A stretch of 34,408 bases of DNA from Bacteroidales bacterium (GTDB taxonomy: Bacteria > Bacteroidota > Bacteroidia > Bacteroidales > NBLH01): NCBI GenBank assembly GCA_016937695.1, contig JAFGWC010000021.1, forward strand, positions 1-34,408, given 5' to 3'. The notes beneath the pieces are model-generated. The model searched no databases, was not told the origin of the DNA, and saw only the letters and a program-made list of their open reading frames with translations. The translations under genes were made by a program, and so were the position numbers. Every line of letters starts with the position of its first letter. The first letter of the stretch is position 1. Below, in pieces: positions 3,301-32,171 of the stretch.

Positions 3301-3840
3301 ATGAGATGATCTAAATCCGTCAAAAAAATGAACAAATGGTATTCTTGACTTGATTGCTGCTAAATGAGCAACTCCAGCTAAATCCATTATTTGTTGTACA
3401 CTACCTGCTGCTAAAAAAGCAAAACCGGTTTGTCTAGCACTCATAACATCAGAATGATCTCCAAAAATCGAAAGTGCTTGAGCTGCAAGACTTCTAGCAC
3501 TTACATGAAATACGGCAGGCAATAATTCACCTGCTATTTTATACATGTTTGGAATCATTAATAATAATCCTTGTGAGGCAGTATAAGTACTTGTTAATGC
3601 ACCTGATTGCAATGAACCATGGACTGCTCCTGAAGCACCACCTTCTGATTGCATTTCTGTTACTAAAACTGTTTCTCCCCAAATATTCTTTCTGCCATTA
3701 GCTGCCCATCCATCAACATTTTCGGCCATGTTTGATGAAGGTGTAATAGGATATATTGCCGCAACCTCACTAAACATATAAGCTATATGCGAAGCAGCGT
3801 GGTTCCCGTCACAAGTAAGATACTTTTTAGTTTTAACCAT
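301..3840 (-). CDS. nifJ: Pyruvate:ferredoxin (flavodoxin) oxidoreductase
   Basis: Single-chain PFOR of 1179 residues, the usual size for the homodimeric enzyme. It oxidises pyruvate with CoA to acetyl-CoA and CO2 and passes electrons to ferredoxin or flavodoxin in the cytoplasm. Domain order is the family standard: N-terminal pyrimidine-binding/transketolase-like domain starting with YPITPSSNMAE, the gamma-like middle region, a 2[4Fe-4S] ferredoxin insert, and the C-terminal TPP domain. The ferredoxin cysteines are visible as C691-x2-C694-x2-C697-x3-C701 and C747-x2-C750-x2-C753-x3-C757. The proximal-cluster region reads CAGCGETPY, and the TPP/Mg motif is GDGWAYDIGYGG. The ATG at 3840 gives the expected N-terminus. 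It appears monocistronic, with a terminator at 254-283. No clear promoter was found upstream. The enzyme is oxygen-sensitive in most organisms and supports an anaerobic lifestyle. Confidence 0.97.
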   Translation of the reverse strand: MVKTKKYLTCDGNHAASHIAYMFSEVAAIYPITPSSNMAENVDGWAANGRKNIWGETVLVTEMQSEGGASGAVHGSLQSGALTSTYTASQGLLLMIPNMYKIAGELLPAVFHVSARSLAAQALSIFGDHSDVMSARQTGFAFLAAGSVQQIMDLAGVAHLAAIKSRIPFVHFFDGFRSSHEIQKVETIEQDDLAKLIDQKELQEFRNRALSPENPVTRGTAQNPDIYFQAREASNRFYDAVPDIVDGYMQEINKLTGRNYAPFTYYGADDAENIIIAMGSVTETIKEVVDYQIAKGDKVGLISVHLYRPFSEKYFMKVFPKSVKRISVLDRTKEPGANGEPLYLDVRDLFYGKENAPIIVGGRYGLSSKDTTPAQMISVFDNLKQREPKNRFTVGIVDDVTFTSLPLLPEISLSTAGTFEAKFYGLGSDGTVGANKNSIKIIGDSTDKYVQAYFAYDSKKSGGITVSHLRFGDKEIKSTYLVTTPDFVACHVPAYLKKYDMLKGLKKGGTFLLNSIWDEEETKNQLPDSFKKHLAENDIKFYIINATKIAVEIGLGSRTNTIMQSAFFKIANVIPYEDAVKEMKKAIVKTFSMKGEKIVNMNYNAVDRGGDVSEIKIPAEWAQLKGQDEVDDKVYPDFIKNIMNPINELKGDDLPVSAFLDREDGTFPAGTAAFEKRGIATEVPEWIAENCIQCNQCAYVCPHGVIRPFLFDENDKSKAPKEINTIPAIGKELQGYGFRIQVSALDCTGCSVCVDVCPSKEKSLVMKPLESQMVEADNWDYITKNVTYKDTIVPKEKTFKNSQFAQPLFEFSGACAGCGETPYVKLTTQLFGDRMTIANATGCSSIYGGSAPATPYTTNSEGRGPAWANSLFEDNAEYGLGMALGSNKLRERILDRFTTALSTNIPEELKLAIQEWIGNKDDGEKSREASDKVVPLLEKCKEPFAKEILGIKSYLTKKSHWIFGGDGWAYDIGYGGLDHVIASGENVNILVLDTEVYSNTGGQSSKSTPVGAVAKFAASGKKIRKKDLGAMAMTYGYVYVAQISMGANMNQTFKAIKEAEAYPGPSIVIAYSPCIAHGLRAGMGKMMQEEKEAVKSGYWQLFRYNPELAEEGKNPLVIDSREPEWDKFQDFVKGEVRYSSLIKAFPKEAQELFDAAEENAKWKYNYYKRLVAMDFSNEE

Positions 3841-4027
3841 AATTTAAATATTTAAAATTGATCTATATTAACCTTTATTAAAATTTACTGCATAACTATT
3901 ATTTTTTAGATACTATTTGCAGTTTTATTCAATATATATTCTTTCAAATTGCTCACAAAAATAAGCTTTTTTTTATTCTTTGCATATTCTTATTTTATAT
4001 TCTACAACAAGTTTATTAATTATTTTG

Positions 4028-4035
4028 TAAATTTG
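4028..4035 (+). promoter_or_regulatory. Possible -7 box for the lipoprotein/rSAM pair
   Basis: TAAATTTG matches the Bacteroidota -7 consensus TAnnTTTG, 76 bases before the lipoprotein ATG. No convincing TTTG -33 box sits at the expected 18-21 base spacing, so this is tentative. Confidence 0.3.
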
Positions 4036-4111
4036 TACAAAAGCGAGCTATTTAGATTCAATTTATATGTTTTAAAATATCATTTTAATTTTAATTTTAA
4101 TTTTTAAAGTC

Positions 4112-4474
4112 ATGCTTAGTTTTATAAATAAACATCTTCGTTTTTTCCTGACAGGCTCTTTTTCAATAGTTTTTGCTGCTTGTTATGGTGTTCCGGTTGA
4201 ACTAGAAAATCCAAAATTAATTAGCACTAAAAATTCTGATGATCAAGCAATTGCAGGCCTAAAAGTTCAACTTTTTGAAAACAGAAACCCTATTGATGAA
4301 TTTTATACTGATGAAAATGGTTTGGTCGAATTTTATCCTGTTCAAAAAGATAAATATCACTACAGTATTAAAATTGAAGATATTGATGGTGCTGATAATG
4401 GAGGTGAATTTGAAACTGCAAAAATTGATATTACTGATTCAAACTTTTTTGAAATTACTCTTAAAGGGAAATAA
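4112..4474 (+). CDS. Putative lipoprotein of a radical SAM/lipoprotein pair (TIGR04134-like)
   Basis: 120-residue secreted protein. Residues 1-23 are a lipoprotein signal peptide ending in the lipobox VFAAC, so Cys24 should be lipidated. Directly after it comes YGVP, then a small beta-sandwich-like segment (IAGLKVQLF, then TDENGLVEF) reminiscent of CarboxypepD_reg-like folds, and an acidic, glycine-rich stretch DIDGADNGGEF at residues 90-100. The Cys-x-YG-x-P start, the DxDGxxNGGEF block and the location just before a radical SAM/SPASM gene match my knowledge of the Bacteroidales 'radical SAM-associated putative lipoprotein' family (TIGR04134). The role is unknown; it is the natural candidate substrate or partner of the next gene. 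At 120 residues it seems short for the family, and its C-terminus stops soon after the acidic block. Confidence 0.7.
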   Translation: MLSFINKHLRFFLTGSFSIVFAACYGVPVELENPKLISTKNSDDQAIAGLKVQLFENRNPIDEFYTDENGLVEFYPVQKDKYHYSIKIEDIDGADNGGEFETAKIDITDSNFFEITLKGK

Positions 4475-4500
4475 TAAGTTTTACAATTTGCGATTCAATA

Positions 4501-4604
4501 TCGTTTAGTTAAGAATTTTTATTGAAATCACAACTAAAGTTGCAAGTTAAGTTGTAATTTGAAAATATAAATAACGCATAATATTATATCCTTTAACTAA
4601 ACGA
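4501..4604. repeat. 104-base element with 12-base inverted ends and a nested hairpin
   Basis: TCGTTTAGTTAA at 4501-4512 is repeated in perfect inverted form at 4593-4604. Inside, 4526-4559 folds into an imperfect 17-base-arm hairpin with three mismatches. The element fills most of the gap between the lipoprotein and radical SAM genes. It could be a small MITE-like insertion, or an mRNA structure setting the ratio of the two proteins; sequence alone does not decide. Neither end is followed by a T-run typical of a terminator. Confidence 0.55.
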
Positions 4605-4664
4605 CTTTAATTTTTACTTAGTTAATTTTTATTTTTCTTGAAATTAATCTGATATTTATAACTA

Positions 4665-5750
4665 TTGAAACTAAAATTCAAATTAAAAACCAAATTACAT
4701 TCAATTTATAAACAAATTGAGATAAAAGAGCATAAACTTTCTTATTTATTCCTTGAAATTACCAGAAAATGTAATTTAAACTGTTTGCATTGCGGTTCTG
4801 ATTGCAAAGCAGATTCTAAGTTCCCTGAATTAACAACTGAAAGCTGGTTTAAAATAATTGATTATTTTGAAAAAACATATTCTAAAAGTGTTGCTTTTAT
4901 TATAACTGGTGGCGAACCATTATTGCATCCTGATGTTTTTAAAATCGGCAAATATATTTCGGATAAAAAAATGCGCTGGGGAATGGTTACAAATGGTATT
5001 AAGCTGAACAGTAGCACATTACACAAACTAATCGAATCTGGAATTTATAGTATCACTTTAAGTTTAGATGGATTAGAAAACTCGCATAATTGGCTTAGAA
5101 ATAGCAAAATTGCTTATAAAAAAGTTTTAATTGCATTAAATGAAATCGGGAAATCAAATATCTATTTTAAAGATGTTGTTACTTGTGTGAATCCGAAAAA
5201 CATAAATGAACTAGATAAATTAGCAGAATTACTAATCAGAAATAAAATCGAAAACTGGCGATTATTTAGAATTTTTCCATCAGGAAGAGCAAAAAATAAT
5301 GACAAATTAAATTTATCATTTAAACAAACACAAGAAATGCTTGATTTTATTGCGAAAAATAAAAAAGCCTATTTTAAAAAAGGTTTAAATCTTAATCTTA
5401 GTTGCGAAGGTTGGATTAGTATGGAAAAAGACATTCAAGTAAGAGACAATCCATTTTTTTGCAGAGCGGGAATTAATATTGCTTCAATTTTATCTGATGG
5501 AACTATTACTGGATGCACAAATAATTCTGAGGCTTTTCATGTTGGTAATATTATAAAGGATAATTTTGCAAATTTATGGGAAAATAATTTTGATATTTTC
5601 AGAGATAGAGATTGGCTGAAAAATACAGAATGTATTAATTGTAAGTATTTTAATCAATGTAAAGGCAGCTCGATTCATTTGTGGGAAAATTTTGAAGATG
5701 AAAAGCCTAAGTTTTGTTATGCTGTTGATTTAGAAAAACTAAAAAGCTAA
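4665..5750 (+). CDS. Radical SAM/SPASM protein (TIGR04133-like), partner of the lipoprotein
   Basis: 361-residue cytoplasmic radical SAM enzyme. The [4Fe-4S]/SAM motif is C36-x3-C40-x2-C43, with the SAM-contacting TGGEP at 81-85. The C-terminal SPASM region carries C266, C284, C323, C326, C332 and C351, with Cys247 and the GTITGC turn nearby, enough to bind one or two auxiliary Fe-S clusters. SPASM enzymes usually modify peptides or proteins. Together with the preceding lipoprotein this matches the TIGR04133 radical SAM/lipoprotein system of Bacteroidales; what is modified is unknown. The start is a TTG at 4665: an in-frame stop lies at 4659-4661 and the first in-frame ATG is far inside the catalytic domain. 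The 3' end overlaps the convergent trmN6 gene by 12 bases. The 190-base gap to the lipoprotein holds the inverted-repeat element. Family assignment is from recall, not a search. Confidence 0.85.
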   Translation: MKLKFKLKTKLHSIYKQIEIKEHKLSYLFLEITRKCNLNCLHCGSDCKADSKFPELTTESWFKIIDYFEKTYSKSVAFIITGGEPLLHPDVFKIGKYISDKKMRWGMVTNGIKLNSSTLHKLIESGIYSITLSLDGLENSHNWLRNSKIAYKKVLIALNEIGKSNIYFKDVVTCVNPKNINELDKLAELLIRNKIENWRLFRIFPSGRAKNNDKLNLSFKQTQEMLDFIAKNKKAYFKKGLNLNLSCEGWISMEKDIQVRDNPFFCRAGINIASILSDGTITGCTNNSEAFHVGNIIKDNFANLWENNFDIFRDRDWLKNTECINCKYFNQCKGSSIHLWENFEDEKPKFCYAVDLEKLKS

Positions 5751-24998: not shown

Positions 24999-26855
24999 AT
25001 GTTTAGAAAAAGAATTTCGCTACAAATTTCAATCCCTCTTATTCTTCTAACAGCTATTATTCTAATTATCATTCTTTGGGTTGTAGTATTTAATTATAGT
25101 AAAAACTCTGAAAACTATATTTCTGACAGAATAAGAAAACAACTGTCAAACTACGATAGCAATCTTGAGAGAATACAATCAAAAGCTTTAATGACAGCAT
25201 CATGTTTTGCCGATTTAGCATCTACAAAAGAAGCTTATAGAATTTTAGCGGAAACCAATGATCGAGAATTGGCAATTAAACCACTTATTAAACAAGTTTC
25301 TCAAATCAATAACAAAATAAAAAGGAACATGGATATGGATTTAAAAATCCACTTTCATACTTCTGATACAAGGTCTTTATATCGATCATGGTCAGATAAA
25401 AGAGGTGATGACATTTCTGGTTTTAGAAACACAATTAAAGAAGCCGTTAAAACAAACGATGCTGTTAAAGGAATTGAAGTTGGACGAGGCGGTTTGGTTA
25501 TTAGAGGAATAGCAACAATATCTGACAGTCTTGATAATGTAGTTGGAACTGTTGAGAACTTCTTTCCTATTGGAGAGCTTTTAAACCAACTAAAAACAGG
25601 AAACCAGAACGACCAATTTGCAGTTTTTTTAAACAACGAACAATTTGAAATTACTGATGCCAGCACAACGATCAATTCTTCTTCAAAAGGCAGTAAAATA
25701 GGCAGCTTTGCATTAGTCAACACAAGCTCAGAGTTATTTAATGCAGAATTACTTACAAAAGAAGATATTGATAAAGGATCCTTAGGCGAAAACATATTTC
25801 AAAGAGAAAATTTCAAATATGCAATAATTCCTTTAAAAGATTATAATAATATAAATATTGGCGTTTATGTTTATCAATTTGACGTTTCAGAATCAGAAGC
25901 TTTACTTAGTAATCTCAAAATCAGCATATTAACAATAGCAATCGTAATGCTTATTATATTAGCTCTACTAATTTATTTTTTGAGCAAACGAATTATTTCA
26001 AATCCTTTAGATGTAACTGAAAAAATACTTAAAAATCTGGAAGACGGATTTTTAAACGAGAATATAGAAGTTACAAGAGAAGATGAAATTGGCAAATTGC
26101 AATCTCATACAAAAAAAATGCTTTTAAAAATAAGAGAAGTAATTCAAACAATTTTAGAAGCAAGCGAAAAAATAACTGAAGCATCTGCAAATATGCATGA
26201 ATCAGCAAATAATATTTCAAGTTCAACAGATCAACAGTCAAGCACAATTGAAGAGCTTTCGGCATCGGTTGAAGAAATGACAGCAACAATAGAAAAAAAC
26301 ACAGAAATTACTCAAACAAATAAAAAAATGGCAATAGAATCAGCCGAAAAAGCAGATTTAGGTGGTAAATCTATTGAACAAACAATTGACTTAATGAAAA
26401 CAGTTGCCGAAAAAATCACAATAATTAGTGCAATTGCAAATCAAACTAACATGCTGGCTTTAAACGCAGCAGTTGAAGCAGCAAGAGCAGGCGAAAAAGG
26501 TAAAGGTTTTGCCGTTGTTGCCGCAGAAGTAAAAAGTCTAGCTGAAAGAAGTCAAAATGCAGCTAAAGAAATTATTGAATTATCTGAAAAGAGCTTTAAA
26601 ATTGCTGAACAATCACGCGGATTATTTTCAGAAATATTACCTGCAATTAAAAAAACAGCTATACAAATGGAAGAAGTTGCAACTGCCAGCATGCAACAAA
26701 CTGCTAATGCTCACCAAATTAACGAAGCAATTGCGCAATTTAGTTCAACTGTTCAACACAACACTTCAACTGTTGATAATTTAGTTAAAAATGCAGAGCT
26801 TTTAGCGGAACAATCAATAGAAATGAATAAAACAGTAAAATATTTTACTTTATAA
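24999..26855 (+). CDS. Methyl-accepting chemotaxis protein with double-Cache sensor
   Basis: 618-residue chemoreceptor, first gene of the signalling run. Membrane helix 1 is at about 10-30. The periplasmic part (to about 306) has [15 protein letters not shown], a [11 protein letters not shown] stretch and [15 protein letters not shown], the pattern of dCache_3-type sensors. Membrane helix 2 (about 308-330) leads into a HAMP domain and the signalling helices; the CheA/CheW-binding tip [20 protein letters not shown] is near 478-500. There is no C-terminal CheR-tethering pentapeptide. The ligand is unknown. cheW follows after 7 bases. Likely regulated through the intergenic region shared with the Crp/Fnr gene; no clean -33/-7 pair was seen on this strand (closest is GAACTTTG about 40 bases upstream). 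Confidence 0.93.
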
Positions 26856-26862
26856 ATTAGAG

Positions 26863-27372
26863 ATGAATAAAAAAAGAAAAATAAATTCGTTTCTGGTTTT
26901 CACTTTAGAAAATGAACTATATGCAATCCATGTGAAAAAGGTTTTAACAATTGTTGAAATGCATGATATAACTAGAGTTCCCAAATCAGAAAATTATCTA
27001 AAAGGAGTTATAAACCTTAGAGGAGAAATAATTCCGGTAATAGACAGCCATATAAAATTCAAATTGCCGCCGGCTTCTATAACAATGAAAACCAGCATTT
27101 TGATTTTAGAATTGATTTGGAGCGATTTCGAAAAAATAAAAATCGGTTTAATGATTGATAAAGTTGAAGAAGTTATCAGAATTACAAAAAAAGAAATCTT
27201 GCCGCCTCCTAAAATCGAAAACTCTCAGCAATCTGATTATATAACCGGAATGTTTGAAAAAAGCAACGAAAAATTTATTATGATTTTAGATATTGAAAAA
27301 GCTTTATCATTAAATAGCATTTCTACTTATAAACGAAAAAAAGAAGTGAAAATATTTACAGAAGTTGCTTAA
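26863..27372 (+). CDS. cheW: Chemotaxis coupling protein CheW (first copy)
   Basis: 169-residue CheW, a two-lobed beta-barrel adaptor linking receptors to CheA. Core landmarks are SFLVFTLENELYAIHVKKV, the conserved GVINLRGEIIPVID hallmark, and GLMIDKVEEVIRI near the end of the second lobe. The tail after residue 155 is short and basic. Its stop overlaps or abuts the next gene depending on the start chosen there. It is closely similar to the second copy throughout the core (both share the ITMKTSI and KKEILPPP blocks), so the pair arose by tandem duplication. Confidence 0.94.
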   Translation: MNKKRKINSFLVFTLENELYAIHVKKVLTIVEMHDITRVPKSENYLKGVINLRGEIIPVIDSHIKFKLPPASITMKTSILILELIWSDFEKIKIGLMIDKVEEVIRITKKEILPPPKIENSQQSDYITGMFEKSNEKFIMILDIEKALSLNSISTYKRKKEVKIFTEVA

Positions 27373-27412
27373 TTATTCATATAAAAATAAAAAACAGCCT
27401 AAAATTACAGTT

Positions 27413-28057
27413 ATGAACAAGAAAAATAAAAAAACCAAGATAAATTCATATTTAGTATTTTGCCTTGATACTGAATTATTTGCAATTCATGTGGATAAAA
27501 TTTTGAGTATTCTTGAGATGAAAAAAATTACAAAAATTCCGGAATCTCCGGAATACATGAAAGGAGTCATAAATTTAAGAGGCGAAGTTTTACCAATTAT
27601 CGACAGCCATTTAAAATTCAGTTTACCGCCAATAGACATAACAATGAAAACAAGCATTATTGTTTTAGAAATAGAAACTGCTGAAAACAAAATAAAACTT
27701 GGTTTAATGGTTGATAAAGTTGAAGAAGTTATTCAAATCGTAAAAAAAGAAATTCTTCCTCCACCAAATATTGGAACAGCTTTCGAATCAAAATTTATAA
27801 ACGGAATGTATAAAAAAGACGACAAAACTTTTATTATGATAATTGATATTGATAAAGTACTGTCAATTAAAGAAATTATTGATTTAGGCGATTTGAAAAT
27901 TAATGAAATTATTGAGTCTGAAAAAACAAAAAAAGAAGAGAAAACTGAAGAATTTATTGAAAATGAGAAAACAAAAAAGGGAGATAAATTAAAAAAACAA
28001 AAAAAAGAAGAGAAAATAAAAAAAGATACTGAATTAAATAAAACTGATTCTGAATAA
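27413..28057 (+). CDS. cheW: Chemotaxis coupling protein CheW (second copy) with charged tail
   Basis: 214-residue CheW paralogue. I chose the ATG at 27413 because it gives MNKKNKKTKINSYLVF, matching the first copy's MNKKRKINSFLVF; an in-frame ATG at 27365 would add 16 residues and overlap the first copy by 8 bases. The core keeps GVINLRGEVLPIID and GLMVDKVEEVIQI. Unlike the first copy it ends in about 50 residues made mostly of Lys and Glu (for example EKTKKEEKTEE), likely disordered. Two different CheWs in one operon could serve different receptors or array types. Confidence 0.92.
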   Translation: MNKKNKKTKINSYLVFCLDTELFAIHVDKILSILEMKKITKIPESPEYMKGVINLRGEVLPIIDSHLKFSLPPIDITMKTSIIVLEIETAENKIKLGLMVDKVEEVIQIVKKEILPPPNIGTAFESKFINGMYKKDDKTFIMIIDIDKVLSIKEIIDLGDLKINEIIESEKTKKEEKTEEFIENEKTKKGDKLKKQKKEEKIKKDTELNKTDSE

Positions 28058-28100
28058 ATGATTATTTACAGTGAATAACAGAATTTTAAAATTTAAACAA

Positions 28101-29801
28101 ATGAAAAATTTAAAAATAAGTTACAAATTAATAATAAGTTTTGCAGTAATTCTTCTATTATTTGCTATTTCAATGATTTATATAATTGTTAATGTAAATA
28201 AAATGGCAAATTTGCAACATCATGGTTTTAAAAGTGGTTTAGATGTAATTGAAGCAGAAAAAGCTAGTTCATTTTATTTAGATATGTCTTTAATTATTGC
28301 CGACACTGAAATACATCGAAACTTTAATCTATCTGAACAAAAATGGGACAAAGAAATAAATAATATTGATAAAATCATAAATAACATTGAAAATCAAGCA
28401 GATACAGACCAAGAAATAGCTTGGATTGAAGAATCAAAAAAAATAAAAAAAGAAATTTCAACTATCTATAAAGATGATTTAATTCCGTCATTAAAAAAAG
28501 ACACATCAGGAACTATTAACAATCAGATACACAAAATAGATGCTAAATTAGAGAAACTTTTAACAGATTTTGCAATTCCTTTTACAAATATGGAAGCTTC
28601 TTTTTTACAAGAATATAACGAAGCTAATGAAATATTTGACACAACTGCCGAAAGCATTTTTAAAGCAGCAATTATTCTAAGTGTTATAGTACTAACATTT
28701 GCAATATTAATAATAATTTCATTAGTTAATTCTATTGTTCCTCCAATACTAAAATCACTAGATTTTGCAAATAAAATTGCAGAAGGCGATTTATCTGCTA
28801 CAATCGAAATAATCCAAAATGATGAAATTGGTAAAATGACTTATGCATTAAATGATATGATTAAAAAACTTAAATCTATCGTTACCGATATTATAGTTGG
28901 TGCTGACCATGTAGCAAGTGCAAGTTTACAAATAAGTTCAACAGCACAACAAATGTCTCAGGGTTCTAACGAGCAAGCCTCATCAATTGAAGAAGTATCA
29001 TCGACTATGGAAGAAATAAATGCCAATATTCAACAAAGTACTTCTAACTCAAAAGAAACTGAAAATATTGCAAATAAAGCAGCAGCTGATATTAAAGACA
29101 CAAGTAAATCAGTTCTAAACACAGTTGAATCAATGAAAATTATTGCTGATAAAATTTCAATAATAAGCGAAATTGCAAATCAAACAAATATGCTTGCTTT
29201 AAATGCAGCAGTTGAAGCTGCCAGAGCAGGTAAGCGTGGAAAAGGATTTGCTGTTGTAGCCTCAGAAGTAAAGAGTTTAGCTGAAAGAAGTAGCTTAGCT
29301 GCAGAAGAAATTGATAAAGTTGCAGCAGAAAGTGTTATGATTGCCGAAAATTCAGGAGAAATGCTTTCTGAAATTGTTCCTAGCATTGAAAAAACAGCAA
29401 CTTTAGTACAAGAAATCTCAACTGCTTCAATGGAACAAAGTTCTAGTACAGACCAAATTAGCAATGCCATAAACCAACTAAACAATGTTACTCAGCAAAA
29501 TTCAGCTATTTCCGAAGAATTAGCTTCCAGCTCTGAAGAGCTTTCAAGTCAAGCAGAACAACTTAAGCATACAATTTCTTTTTTCAAACTTGACGCGTCG
29601 AATCTTCATAAAAAGACTTTTGTAAAAAAAAGTAGTTCAATAAAAAGAGTAGTTGATACAAATTTTCAAAAAAAAGAAAAAACAAATGTCACAAAAGCAA
29701 AAATAGAGCAACCTAAAAATTCAATTGCAGAAAATCCAAAAGGTTATAAACTTGATTTAGATAGCAATAGATTTAGAGATGATGATTTTGAACGATATTA
29801 A
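28101..29801 (+). CDS. Methyl-accepting chemotaxis protein with helical-bundle sensor
   Basis: 566-residue chemoreceptor. The ATG at 28101 gives [14 protein letters not shown], the usual receptor N-terminus; an in-frame GTG at 28071 would add ten residues. Membrane helix 1 is at about 9-30, then an all-helical periplasmic region (31 to about 186) resembling a four-helix-bundle (4HB) sensor, membrane helix 2 (about 187-208), HAMP ([15 protein letters not shown]), and the signalling domain with the tip [20 protein letters not shown] near 358-377. A polar 60-residue C-terminal tail rich in Lys follows. No CheR pentapeptide. It lies 43 bases after the second cheW. Ligand unknown. Confidence 0.93.
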
Positions 29802-29847
29802 AAAATATTATTAAACGTATACAAAAAAACCCTTAAAAACAATAATT

Positions 29848-31731
29848 ATGAAATGGAAAGACTTAAAATTACGAAATAAATTTTTTATTGCTTTTGGTTC
29901 AATAATAGCAATATTAATAATAATATCAGCTTTTTCAATTAACGGAATAAACGAAATAATAACTAATGGAAATGAAGTTATTGGCGGAAATAGAATAAAA
30001 AGCAATATCATTCAAAAAGATTTAGACCATTTAAAATGGGTAAATCAAGTAAGTCAATTTTTAAATGATGATAATGTAAGCATATTAGATGTTGAAATGG
30101 ATTCGCATAAATGCAAATTTGGCCAGTTTTATTATGGAGAAGAAAGAAAACTTGCTGAAAAATTAGTTCCTGAACTAAAACCAATTTTCGAAAAAATAGA
30201 AGACCCTCATTCTCAGCTACATAAATCAGCTAAAGACATTTCTGATATATTTGAACAAGCCGATAAAAAAATCAGCATTAGATTAATGCAAGTAAAAGCA
30301 GAACATTTAAATTGGCTAAATAAAGTTAACAAAGCAATTACCTTAAACAATTCAAATATTGATGTTGAAGCAGATGCTACAAAATGTAATTTTGCTTTAT
30401 GGTTAAATGATATTGAAACAGTGTATTTTTTAAACAAAAATCCAGAATATGCACAAAAAATTAACAGCATTTTGGAACCACATAGAAAATTACATGAAAG
30501 CGTAATTGAAATTGAAAAATTATTAGCAAATAATAACAGAAATGCAGCTATCTACTATTATGAGAATAATACAACAAAATATGCAGACGAAGTTTTTTCT
30601 AAATTAGAAGAAATAATTGCAATAAATAATTCCAAACTTGAGAAGATGAATATGGCAAATAAAATTTTTGTAGAAAAAACATTGCCTAGTTTAGAAAAAG
30701 TTTCGAGTTTATTTAACGAATTGCATAGTACTGTAAATCAAAAAATTATGTCGGAGGACGTAATGATAAATGAAGCTCAATTAACAAAAAAAGAATTATT
30801 TTTATTCGTAATAATTGCAGCTTTAATTGCGTTTGCAATAGCATATTATTTAACAAATAATATTGTTAAACCAATAAACGAAAGTGTAGCATTTGCAAAA
30901 AAAATATCTGCAGGCGATTTAACTAATAAGCTTAACATTAATCAAAAAGATGAAATTGGCGAGTTAAGCTCTGCATTAAACGAAATGGTTGCAAACTTAA
31001 AAGAAATGATTACAAACGTTGTAAACGGCTCAAAAACAATAGCACAGTTAAGCAACGAAATGAGTGATACTTCTCAAAATATGGCTCAAGGAAATCATGA
31101 ACAATCATCATCAACCGAAGAAATTTCTGCTACAATTGAAGAATTGTCTGCAAATACTCAACAAAATGCTGATAATGCGATAGAAACTAAAGCAATTGCA
31201 TTAAAATCAACAACTGAAATAGAAGAAGGCGGAAAAGCTGTAATTGAAACAGTAAATGCGATGAAAATTATTGCTGATAAAATTGCAGTAATTAATGAAA
31301 TTGCAAACAGAACAAATATGCTAGCACTAAATGCCGCCGTTGAAGCTGCAAGAGCAGGGAAATACGGAGATGGTTTTTCTGTTGTTGCATCAGAAGTTAA
31401 ACAACTAGCAGACAAAAGCTTAATTGCGGCAGAAGAAATTGACAGAGTTGCTGCTAAAAGCGTAGGAATTGCAGAAAACACTTTAAATATTTTTAAAGCA
31501 ATTGTTCCAAACATTAAAAAAACAGCTACTCTTGTCCAAGAAATTGCTGCTGCAAGTATGGAACAAAATTCGGGAACAGCTCAAATTTCTAATGCAATAG
31601 ATCAATTAAATCAAATCACACAACAAAATGCTGCAACATCAGAAGAAATGGCAACAAGCTCTGAAGAGCTTGCCAGTCAAGCTGATTATTTAAATGATGT
31701 TGTTTCATTTTTTAATGTTGGTGATATTTAA
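29848..31731 (+). CDS. Chemoreceptor with two periplasmic CZB zinc-binding modules
   Basis: 627-residue receptor. Membrane helix 1 (12-32) and helix 2 (317-336) bracket a sensor with two tandem CZB (chemoreceptor zinc-binding) modules. Module 1 has His61 (DHLKW), Cys89 (HKCKFG), His121 and His125 (PHSQLH). Module 2 has His153 (EHLNW), Cys180 (TKCNFA), His212 and His216 (PHRKLH). Each keeps the full three-His/one-Cys ligand set. CZB is best known as a cytoplasmic C-terminal domain; here both lie between the membrane helices and so should be periplasmic. HAMP and signalling domains follow. The tip reads IANRTNML, with Arg488 where most receptors have Gln. Likely cue: zinc, or an oxidant acting on the Cys-Zn site (inference). 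Confidence 0.93.
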
Positions 31732-31784
31732 TAAATATACTTTTTTTGCAAAATATTTATTTTAATTAAAAAAAAACAAATTAC

Positions 31785-32171
31785 ATGAAAAGTAATGTTC
31801 ACATAATAATTGTAGATGATTCTTCTACAAACAATTTGCTTTGTAAAATTCTATTTGAAGAGCAAGATTATAAAGTTACTATTATTGATAATGGCAAACA
31901 GGCAATTAGCACAATTAAATCTACAATTCCGGATATGGTTTTACTGGATTTAATGATGCCGGGAATTGATGGATTAGCAGTTTTAAGAGAATTAAAAACG
32001 GATGAAAAAACAAAAAACATTCCAATAATTATTGTTAGTGCTGCTGACACTCAGGCTTATATAAACGAAGTAATGAAGTTAAAACCTTTAGATTATGTAA
32101 AAAAGCCTATCGGATTAAATGATTTATTAGGAAAAGTAGAGTATTATTTAAAATCTATGAATAAAATTTAA
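31785..32171 (+). CDS. CheY-like single-domain response regulator
   Basis: 128-residue receiver domain with no output domain. The acidic pocket is Asp11/Asp12 (VDDS), the phospho-acceptor is Asp55 in MVLLDLMMPG, the switch Ser is S85 in VSAAD, and the lysine is K107 in YVKKPIG. It lies 54 bases after the third receptor and probably ends the operon, before the hairpin at 32182-32215. It could be the CheY of this receptor array, or a phosphate carrier for the hybrid kinase on the other strand. Some receivers with VSAADTQAYI-type ends act with adenylate/diguanylate cyclases, so the CheY role is only likely. Confidence 0.92.
   Translation: MKSNVHIIIVDDSSTNNLLCKILFEEQDYKVTIIDNGKQAISTIKSTIPDMVLLDLMMPGIDGLAVLRELKTDEKTKNIPIIIVSAADTQAYINEVMKLKPLDYVKKPIGLNDLLGKVEYYLKSMNKI

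Follow-up and report, generated by a model that had tools for sequence, protein, structure and literature searches.

Among the described systems close to the gene pair considered here are the spliceases. PlpX is reported to be a SPASM-type radical S-adenosylmethionine (SAM) enzyme of IPR026482 (PMC11002830) which, together with PlpY, excises tyramine at X-Tyr-Gly (PMC11002830, PMC10373908), with a mass loss of 135.0757 Da (PMC10533398). PlpXY needs no leader. The splice tag is a minimal core of PlpA2, such as PIRPLYGLPI or PIRPGYGLPI, and two listed FtsZ fusions with GYGLPI tags are modified (PMC10533398). The same paper counts 27 other characterised splicease systems and 939 predicted ones (PMC10533398), and a review, citing Scott 2022, reports protease inhibition by such spliced residues (PMC10373908). 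Another pair, TIGR04133/TIGR04134, is carried by NCBIfam as hypothetical equivalogs without function. Neither name is mentioned in the literature searched, where a narrow search for the motif discussed below likewise found nothing. The subject of this work is a pair resembling the latter in a 34,408-nucleotide stretch from a Bacteroidales bacterium (the window; contig C159, genome size 3.95 Mb): a lipoprotein gene, followed 190 bp downstream on the same strand by a radical SAM/SPASM gene. A short motif of the lipoprotein, Tyr-Gly-x-Pro (YGxP), is very probably the target of the enzyme, and the pair is probably a splicease directed at lipoproteins, or at least a modifier directed at YG.

The window pair shares with TIGR04133/TIGR04134 its gene order, its lipoprotein partner, a near-full-length alignment of the enzyme, YGxP and a place in trees, although both members fall below the family cut-offs. 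The use of YGxP as a mark of TIGR04134 is a finding of this analysis, not the curators' definition. The likeness to PlpX and TIGR04103 lies in the SPASM radical SAM architecture, a sister position in a 47-row tree, a CGS signature and an X-Y-G-x-P substrate. By contrast, PlpX substrates have Nif11/NHLP-type leaders and PlpX has PlpY as partner, whereas the window substrate would be a lipoprotein that bears a signal peptide and is exported, and PlpY was not found. The window enzyme further differs from PlpX in having an N-terminal helix and C247, one SPASM cysteine fewer and no C-terminal extension.

A search of 295 genomes of the order with the window enzyme gave 81 matches in 66 genomes; the set of 81 loci used below is made of 80 of these matches, the window included, and of a locus from a genus relative (G001), a match at 30% identity (G278) being left out. 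By script, YGxP is present in a same-strand neighbouring open reading frame (ORF) at 72 of the 81 loci, and at 73 if one counts a partner cut at a contig edge but beginning with CYGTP. The other eight comprise two loci cut by contig ends, three with YG but without the proline (QYGSW, CYGVD, AYGTFP) and three with none. Within the same loci, among ORFs of 60-300 amino acids, 75 of the 103 that lie directly upstream have the motif, as do only 3 of the 364 others, and neighbourhood counts across loci place the association of the pair above chance. A second set, drawn from named genomes, overlaps the first and was read by a script with looser length limits: there, YGxP accompanies 51 of 59 TIGR04133-like loci and none of 21 loci with more distant radical SAM enzymes, four of which have short flanks. 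These groups of 59 and 21 were separated once the motif output was known, at tblastn E values of at most 3e-51 and at least 3e-39; the first tree then placed 10 of the 59 within the lineage and, outside it, 19 of the 21. Reading by eye reduced the 51 to 49, two (L160 and L178) being chance ORFs; among the ten loci then without YGxP, six have YG partners of another form and four have none.

The motif is independent of the fold of the partners. With signal peptide and motif masked, 90 partners form 19 groups by similarity (blastp E 1e-3), the largest of which, of TIGR04134 type, holds 63. This grouping started from 96 proteins, of which 90 could be masked, after one chance ORF had been dropped and five partners from other loci added, and it has low power for the shortest. 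Of the other partners, some are stalks that contain Lys/Asp/Ser repeats and terminate in KYGVP, some resemble coiled coils and carry VYGSPE, some have an end weakly similar to carrier proteins, and those that are lipoproteins of Firmicutes contain as many as five VYGPP. Repetition is seen in a Lachnospiraceae protein (five VYGPP) and at locus L136 (three KYGxP). The place of the motif also varies: it may stand at the lipobox cysteine, tens of residues away or, in a few cases, after an AQ signal end, and in a tandem pair (L072) YG is shifted by three residues between the copies. Residue X, just ahead of Tyr, is Cys at 31 of 106 sites, then Glu (21), Lys (17), Met (11), Val (11), Leu (5), Ala (4) and Gln (3). 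In the window genome, a DNA pattern for CYGxP, TGYTAYGGNNNNCC, matches once, in the lipoprotein, while the reversed control pattern matches ten times. A role of YGxP as a sorting signal beside the lipobox was rejected because the motif is also found near C-termini and after AQ signal ends.

Some partners deserve separate mention. In rumen Prevotellaceae and Bacteroidales, partners encoded downstream of the radical SAM gene (L185, positions 3577-4239, with similar ORFs in L189 and L182) combine YG motifs with a C-terminal domain, which in L185 is weakly similar to acyl carrier proteins (E 0.0045). In Firmicutes and Coriobacteriaceae (L198, L204, L206 and L217), short acidic proteins with a lipobox recognised by eye carry one to five VYGPP-like motifs beside TIGR04133-like enzymes; the two that were scanned, from L206 and L217, have no NCBIfam match. 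Away from the radical SAM gene, L240 (3882-4742, G157:C112) codes for a protein that combines YGxP with a signal end of AQ type and with what by eye resembles a type IX secretion C-terminal domain.

That YGxP lipoproteins might be envelope partners, sensors or sorting factors of an enzyme acting elsewhere, rather than its substrates, is quite improbable. It would account for the TIGR04134 proteins that are encoded away from radical SAM genes, one of them in a genome (G231) with no detected radical SAM partner. Yet unrelated partners have only the short motif in common, sometimes repeated, as in the cores of ribosomally synthesized and post-translationally modified peptides, and 37 of the 39 genomes with a TIGR04134 match over the cut-off also have a match to the enzyme (a 38th was recognised by eye), as compared with 66 of 295 overall. 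The pre-lipoprotein, furthermore, is within reach of a cytoplasmic enzyme, which its exported form is not. Both family searches miss weak members, that for TIGR04134 having missed the window lipoprotein and that for the enzyme a radical SAM gene in G249. Seventeen TIGR04134 matches away from a known enzyme match were picked for reading: nine of these stretches have a TIGR04134-like ORF with YGxP, one of which (G249) proved to have its own radical SAM gene, four have YG without the proline there, and four lack YG. Three of the latter are below the cut-off in genomes without an enzyme match; the fourth is above it in a genome that has one. The two genes, whose routine separation the earlier note on this DNA would have held against a functional pair, are not commonly apart as seen from the enzyme (73 of 81 loci with a YGxP partner, three more with YG), while TIGR04134 does occur by itself. 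The lipoprotein remains the probable substrate, as that note proposed.

Where on the lipoprotein the enzyme would act is another matter. The protein has a lipobox, FAAC, recognised by eye, with Cys24 as the first of 97 mature residues, the length given in the earlier note, and YGVP follows this cysteine directly. Its best NCBIfam match is TIGR04134, below the cut-off (26.8 bits, E 4.3e-6, residues 42-110). An alignment of the window protein with ten relatives from nine loci, with starts chosen by us, shows C, Y, G and P of CYGxP invariant in 11 of 11, all of which match TIGR04134 at E of 0.01 or less (best 7.6e-13). The protein is indeed short against the 150-position family model, as had been remarked, but so is the whole aligned subclade (119-122 amino acids). 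In the AlphaFold2 model a helix at residues 5-14 lies in a low-confidence N-terminus, and a low-confidence linker that includes YGxP (predicted local distance difference test, pLDDT, about 57) precedes a confident beta-sandwich, with Foldseek matches in the PDB to transthyretin-like, CnaB and carboxypeptidase D folds. Pfam matches to SpaA, SdrD_B and CarboxypepD_reg are weak and below cut-off. The mature lipoprotein thus shares a predicted fold with transthyretin, CnaB and carboxypeptidase-regulatory domains, a likeness of scaffold only. A sequence search of the PDB gave a single match, to carbamate kinase (E 0.013), judged to be chance.

This sandwich contains the acidic block DxDGxxNGGEF which the earlier note put forward as the site of modification. 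In favour of that site, all 11 aligned lipoproteins of the subclade keep D90, D92, N96, G98 and F100, so that the block it singled out is truly conserved there. Among partners at large it is not general: of 92 YGxP partners, 43 fail to match a crude block pattern, and by eye these are 17 diverged sandwiches, one chance ORF, one truncated ORF and 24 proteins with no such domain, while three coiled-coil-like partners match it by chance. Because at least 24 of 92 YGxP partners do without the domain, stalk-like and coiled-coil lipoproteins beside the same enzyme type among them, as do the multi-VYGPP lipoproteins, the block reads as a scaffold feature of one partner class. It also sits in a folded domain (pLDDT 78-94, with 78 at the acidic block), as against the low-confidence linker of YGxP. 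As target, the acidic block is very improbable, and we set it aside in favour of the motif that unrelated partners share.

Turning to the enzyme, Pfam recognises Radical_SAM (E 3.4e-21) and SPASM (E 2.2e-7, above the Pfam cut-off), and NCBIfam places it nearest to TIGR04133 (369.3 bits, E 1.6e-110, as against 132.3 bits for the second-best family), whose model it aligns over nearly its full length. The curated cut-off is 425 bits. All five sampled subclade enzymes, the window's included, score 333-372 bits, and all six other sampled enzymes 466-603. The subclade consists of the window enzyme with ten matches at 52-72% identity and G001, set apart from a remainder at 45% or less; five of these genomes carry, in addition, an enzyme copy of the kind that makes up the remainder. 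Six of its 12 enzymes, the window's among them, were placed in the first tree, where they form a single clade (100/100), and three trees put the window enzyme within the TIGR04133 lineage (100/100, 100/99 and 100/99). The position of the subclade varies by tree: in one it lies among the Bacteroidota members, next to a clade whose lipoproteins have CYGTP, and in another it is next to all other Bacteroidota members. Since the score is below the cut-off and the trees nevertheless place it inside the lineage, the enzyme is, on its sequence, a divergent branch of that lineage rather than a TIGR04133 member as curated. The fit to TIGR04133/TIGR04134 advanced by the earlier note is therefore sound as to lineage and adjacent lipoprotein and fails as to curated membership, for both genes (369.3 against 425 bits, 26.8 against 39.8), with an enzyme cut-off that excludes the sampled part of the whole subclade.

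The pair is present in a Parabacteroides distasonis record too, and TIGR04133-like loci of the named-genome set include Spirochaetaceae, Fibrobacter, Clostridia, Erysipelotrichaceae and Coriobacteriaceae; a phage collection gave 11 records, of which the five listed are remote radical SAM enzymes (21-27% identity). The alignment of the enzymes covers 79 of the 81 loci (L116 and L120 were left out, a neighbouring frame having been picked), and outside TIGR04133 the best families of these 79 are AhbD, TIGR04053, TIGR04103 and NirJ. The start codon of the window enzyme is TTG, and relatives have TTG, ATG or GTG near the matching place. Its structure model (mean pLDDT 94.8) has an N-terminal helix at residues 3-22 and is nearest to the solved folds of SkfB, BlsE, SuiB and anSME; no splicease was recognised among the 50 structure matches listed. 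Of the seven cysteines that we take to make up the SPASM motif six are present, the Cx3C cysteine being absent in 35 of 35 lineage rows, and C247 is conserved besides.

What connects this lineage to the spliceases is a tree, a signature and a motif. In the 47-row tree, rooted on MftC and PqqE after removal of near-duplicates, long branches and a Rhizobium row, the TIGR04133 lineage is sister to the nif11-class maturase 3/GDL group (99/95.6), and both alternative pairings have approximately unbiased (AU) p values of about 0.026. Two further AU tests pointing the same way (p 1.7e-5 and 7e-5) were set aside, since a Paenibacillus row sat inside the group that had been constrained without it. The CGS signature (G44-S45) is present in 35 of 35 TIGR04133-type and 6 of 6 PlpX/GDL rows, as compared with 0/19 and 1/19 in the outgroup. 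On the side of substrates, CYGVP of the window partner offers an X-Tyr-Gly site, with YGxP as in the PlpA2-derived tag. A Nostoc maturase 3 from a plasmid collection (853 bits with TIGR04103, 414 with TIGR03913, 152 with TIGR04133) adjoins a 71-residue ORF and a Nif11 precursor ending in GGRGSIALYGLPPELF (ALYGLPPELF). Neighbours with YG in the sister group include an Agathobacter ORF ending in VMYGTGVRM; none was noted beside the Tropicibacter enzyme of that group. The GDL maturases of TIGR03913, in the same larger clade, go with DUF1843 peptides that are short and, unlike the window lipoprotein, without lipobox or fixed proline. A search for TIGR04103 in 148 genomes of the phylum gave one match, below the cut-off (L148), which figured in the first tree only and was later left out as a long branch.

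Two observations concern these sister-group loci themselves. At three GDL/DUF1843 loci (L251, L252 and L255), peptides alternate XYG and XYM or XYA at the same place, as if some copies were unmodified. On an Agathobacter rectalis plasmid, an unannotated 68-residue ORF (L254, 2210-2416) lies just upstream of the radical SAM gene, itself followed by a major facilitator superfamily transporter, and is a possible unannotated peptide precursor.

A number of points weigh against a splicease. When a very long Rhizobium branch is kept, the joint clade is absent from the best tree (p-AU 0.21, not rejected) and the Rhizobium row stands beside the maturase 3/GDL group. The cysteines differ: the SPASM Cx3C cysteine is found in 0 of 35 lineage rows against 6 of 6 PlpX/GDL rows, an extra C47 is found in 34 of 35 lineage rows, and C247, present in 35 of 35 lineage rows and in 17 of the 19 rows of the outgroup, is found in a single one of the 6 PlpX/GDL rows. 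Being common to lineage and outgroup, this last column counts against the sister relation, and because auxiliary and SPASM cysteines differ, the chemistry may depart from that of PlpX. TIGR04103 is only the tenth family for the window enzyme (105.5 bits, cut-off 725), and the link from PlpX to it supposes that IPR026482 is TIGR04103, as we presume. With the 71-residue Nostoc ORF as query, no PlpY-like ORF was found in the window genome (E up to 0.1) or at the other fetched loci (E up to 1), in a search that had no positive control and that a divergent PlpY could escape. No leader was seen in the lipoprotein, PlpX precursors being of Nif11/NHLP type, and no mass spectrum of any lineage member was found. 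YG is present in only 4 of the 8 DUF1843 copies read, and 3 of 81 radical SAM loci, like 4 of the 59 by eye in the named set, lack a YG partner. Finally, of the FtsZ tags listed that share this YGLP core, most are reported not to be accepted by PlpXY (PMC10533398).

A competing view is that the enzyme changes the same motif in another way, for instance by crosslinking its Tyr, Gly or Pro, by oxidising or decarboxylating the Tyr, or by epimerisation. Other SPASM enzymes form C-C and C-S bonds or epimerise, and the evidence for YGxP as target serves such reactions equally; the cysteines unlike those of PlpX/GDL rows, the PlpY search just described and the nearest solved folds speak for them. We nonetheless regard another reaction as unlikely, though a serious competitor, in view of the sister group and its common X-Y-G-x-P target, which point to the same chemistry. 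A thioether from Cys to Tyr or Gly was rejected as the general reaction, since no more than 31 of the 106 sites have Cys as X. Tyramine excision, by analogy with PlpX, is thus the reaction that we favour.

If so, the enzyme would act in the cytoplasm on X-Tyr-Gly-x-Pro of the pre-lipoprotein (C24-Y25-G26-V27-P28) ahead of export, and export, lipidation and cleavage of the signal peptide would follow. The product on the cell envelope would be an electrophilic ketoamide, plausibly a membrane-anchored protease inhibitor or trap. As protease inhibition is reported for such residues in the review (PMC10373908), inhibition or trapping at the surface is the most likely role that we can name, held with low confidence and on balance doubtful. 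It is hard to picture for the window member, where X is the lipidated cysteine. Since X is Cys24, the anchor residue itself would be altered, the anchored first residue being turned into a beta-amino acid. To our knowledge, no lipoprotein with its lipid anchor on a beta-amino acid has been described. Extended to the whole lineage, the proposal becomes tentative, if somewhat less so than the role: envelope lipoproteins that form a large family across Bacteroidota, Spirochaetes, Fibrobacter and Firmicutes may be spliced in their backbone at YGxP, giving membrane-anchored alpha-keto-beta-amino-acid proteins in which X sets the specificity of the electrophile. In the window class, splicing would fall on the lipidated N-terminal cysteine, and a beta-amino acid would bear the lipid anchor.

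The reaction class itself has been described; that the TIGR04133 lineage would apply it to lipoproteins is provisionally new, and was not met in the literature searched, outside which lies the main splicease survey (Scott 2022). For TIGR04133/TIGR04134, a pair without solved function, X-Tyr-Gly-x-Pro is now the predicted target and -135.08 Da the mass change to be expected, which would give the pair a testable reaction whose chemistry has so far been described for cyanobacterial peptides. If the proposal is true, backbone splicing puts ketoamide electrophiles on bacterial surfaces, besides small peptides, and leader-independent enzymes are on offer for protein labelling.

Table 1. Features of the pair and their positions in the window.
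Feature	Position	Strand	Basis
Lipoprotein gene, 120 amino acids, predicted substrate of the radical SAM enzyme	4112..4474	+	TIGR04134, 26.8 bits (cut-off 39.8)
Lipoprotein signal peptide, residues 1-23, ahead of the lipobox Cys (FAAC)	4112..4180	+	Sequence, by eye
C24-Y25-G26-V27-P28, lipobox Cys and YGxP, predicted modification site (X-Tyr-Gly)	4181..4195	+	Invariant C, Y, G and P in the subclade
Transthyretin/CnaB-like beta-sandwich, residues 35-116	4214..4459	+	AlphaFold2 model, Foldseek PDB matches
Acidic block DIDGADNGGEF, residues 90-100, scaffold feature; site proposed by the earlier note	4379..4411	+	Subclade alignment
Dispersed repeat with near-terminal inverted repeat, intergenic	4480..4625	none	13 further genome copies or fragments
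Radical SAM/SPASM enzyme, 361 amino acids, TTG start	4665..5750	+	Pfam, NCBIfam, structure model
CxxxCxxCGSDC (C36, C40, C43, G44, S45, C47), SAM cluster motif with CGS signature	4770..4805	+	Row comparison with PlpX/GDL group
Auxiliary-cluster region: C247; SPASM C266, C284, C323, C326, C332, C351; Cx3C Cys missing	5403..5717	+	Alignment

Both genes lie where the earlier note had located them (Table 1), with the content it gave them, and its picture of a SPASM enzyme of cytoplasmic type whose partner is an exported lipoprotein is borne out. So is that of a minimal two-gene unit: among the window ORFs directly beside the pair there is no transporter, protease or second enzyme of that kind. The flanks are a large minus-strand ORF upstream, which we take to be NifJ-like, and a minus-strand ORF downstream, presumably methyltransferase-like. 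The former has relatives at four loci of the genus and in one genome of another family, the latter in two relatives, and because these ORFs recur beside relatives of the pair, vertical descent at the current site is suggested. The genome holds a single radical SAM gene of TIGR04133 type (remaining matches at most 44.4 bits), and the enzyme is present in five of the seven genomes of the genus. The other two have no TIGR04134 match either, which is weak evidence of absence since the same search overlooked a lipoprotein visible on reading in G005.

The repeat between the two genes is about 146 bp long and has, by eye, 12-bp inverted repeats close to its ends; its further copies and fragments in the genome are 68-86% identical. 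It has the look of a small element, mobile or palindromic. An RNA element was also considered for this stretch and rejected, as its fold is no better than that of shuffled sequences (z -0.47) and the stretch is a dispersed repeat. Far downstream in the window (24999-32171) lies a cluster that by eye contains three proteins of the methyl-accepting chemotaxis type, two genes similar to CheW and one response regulator.

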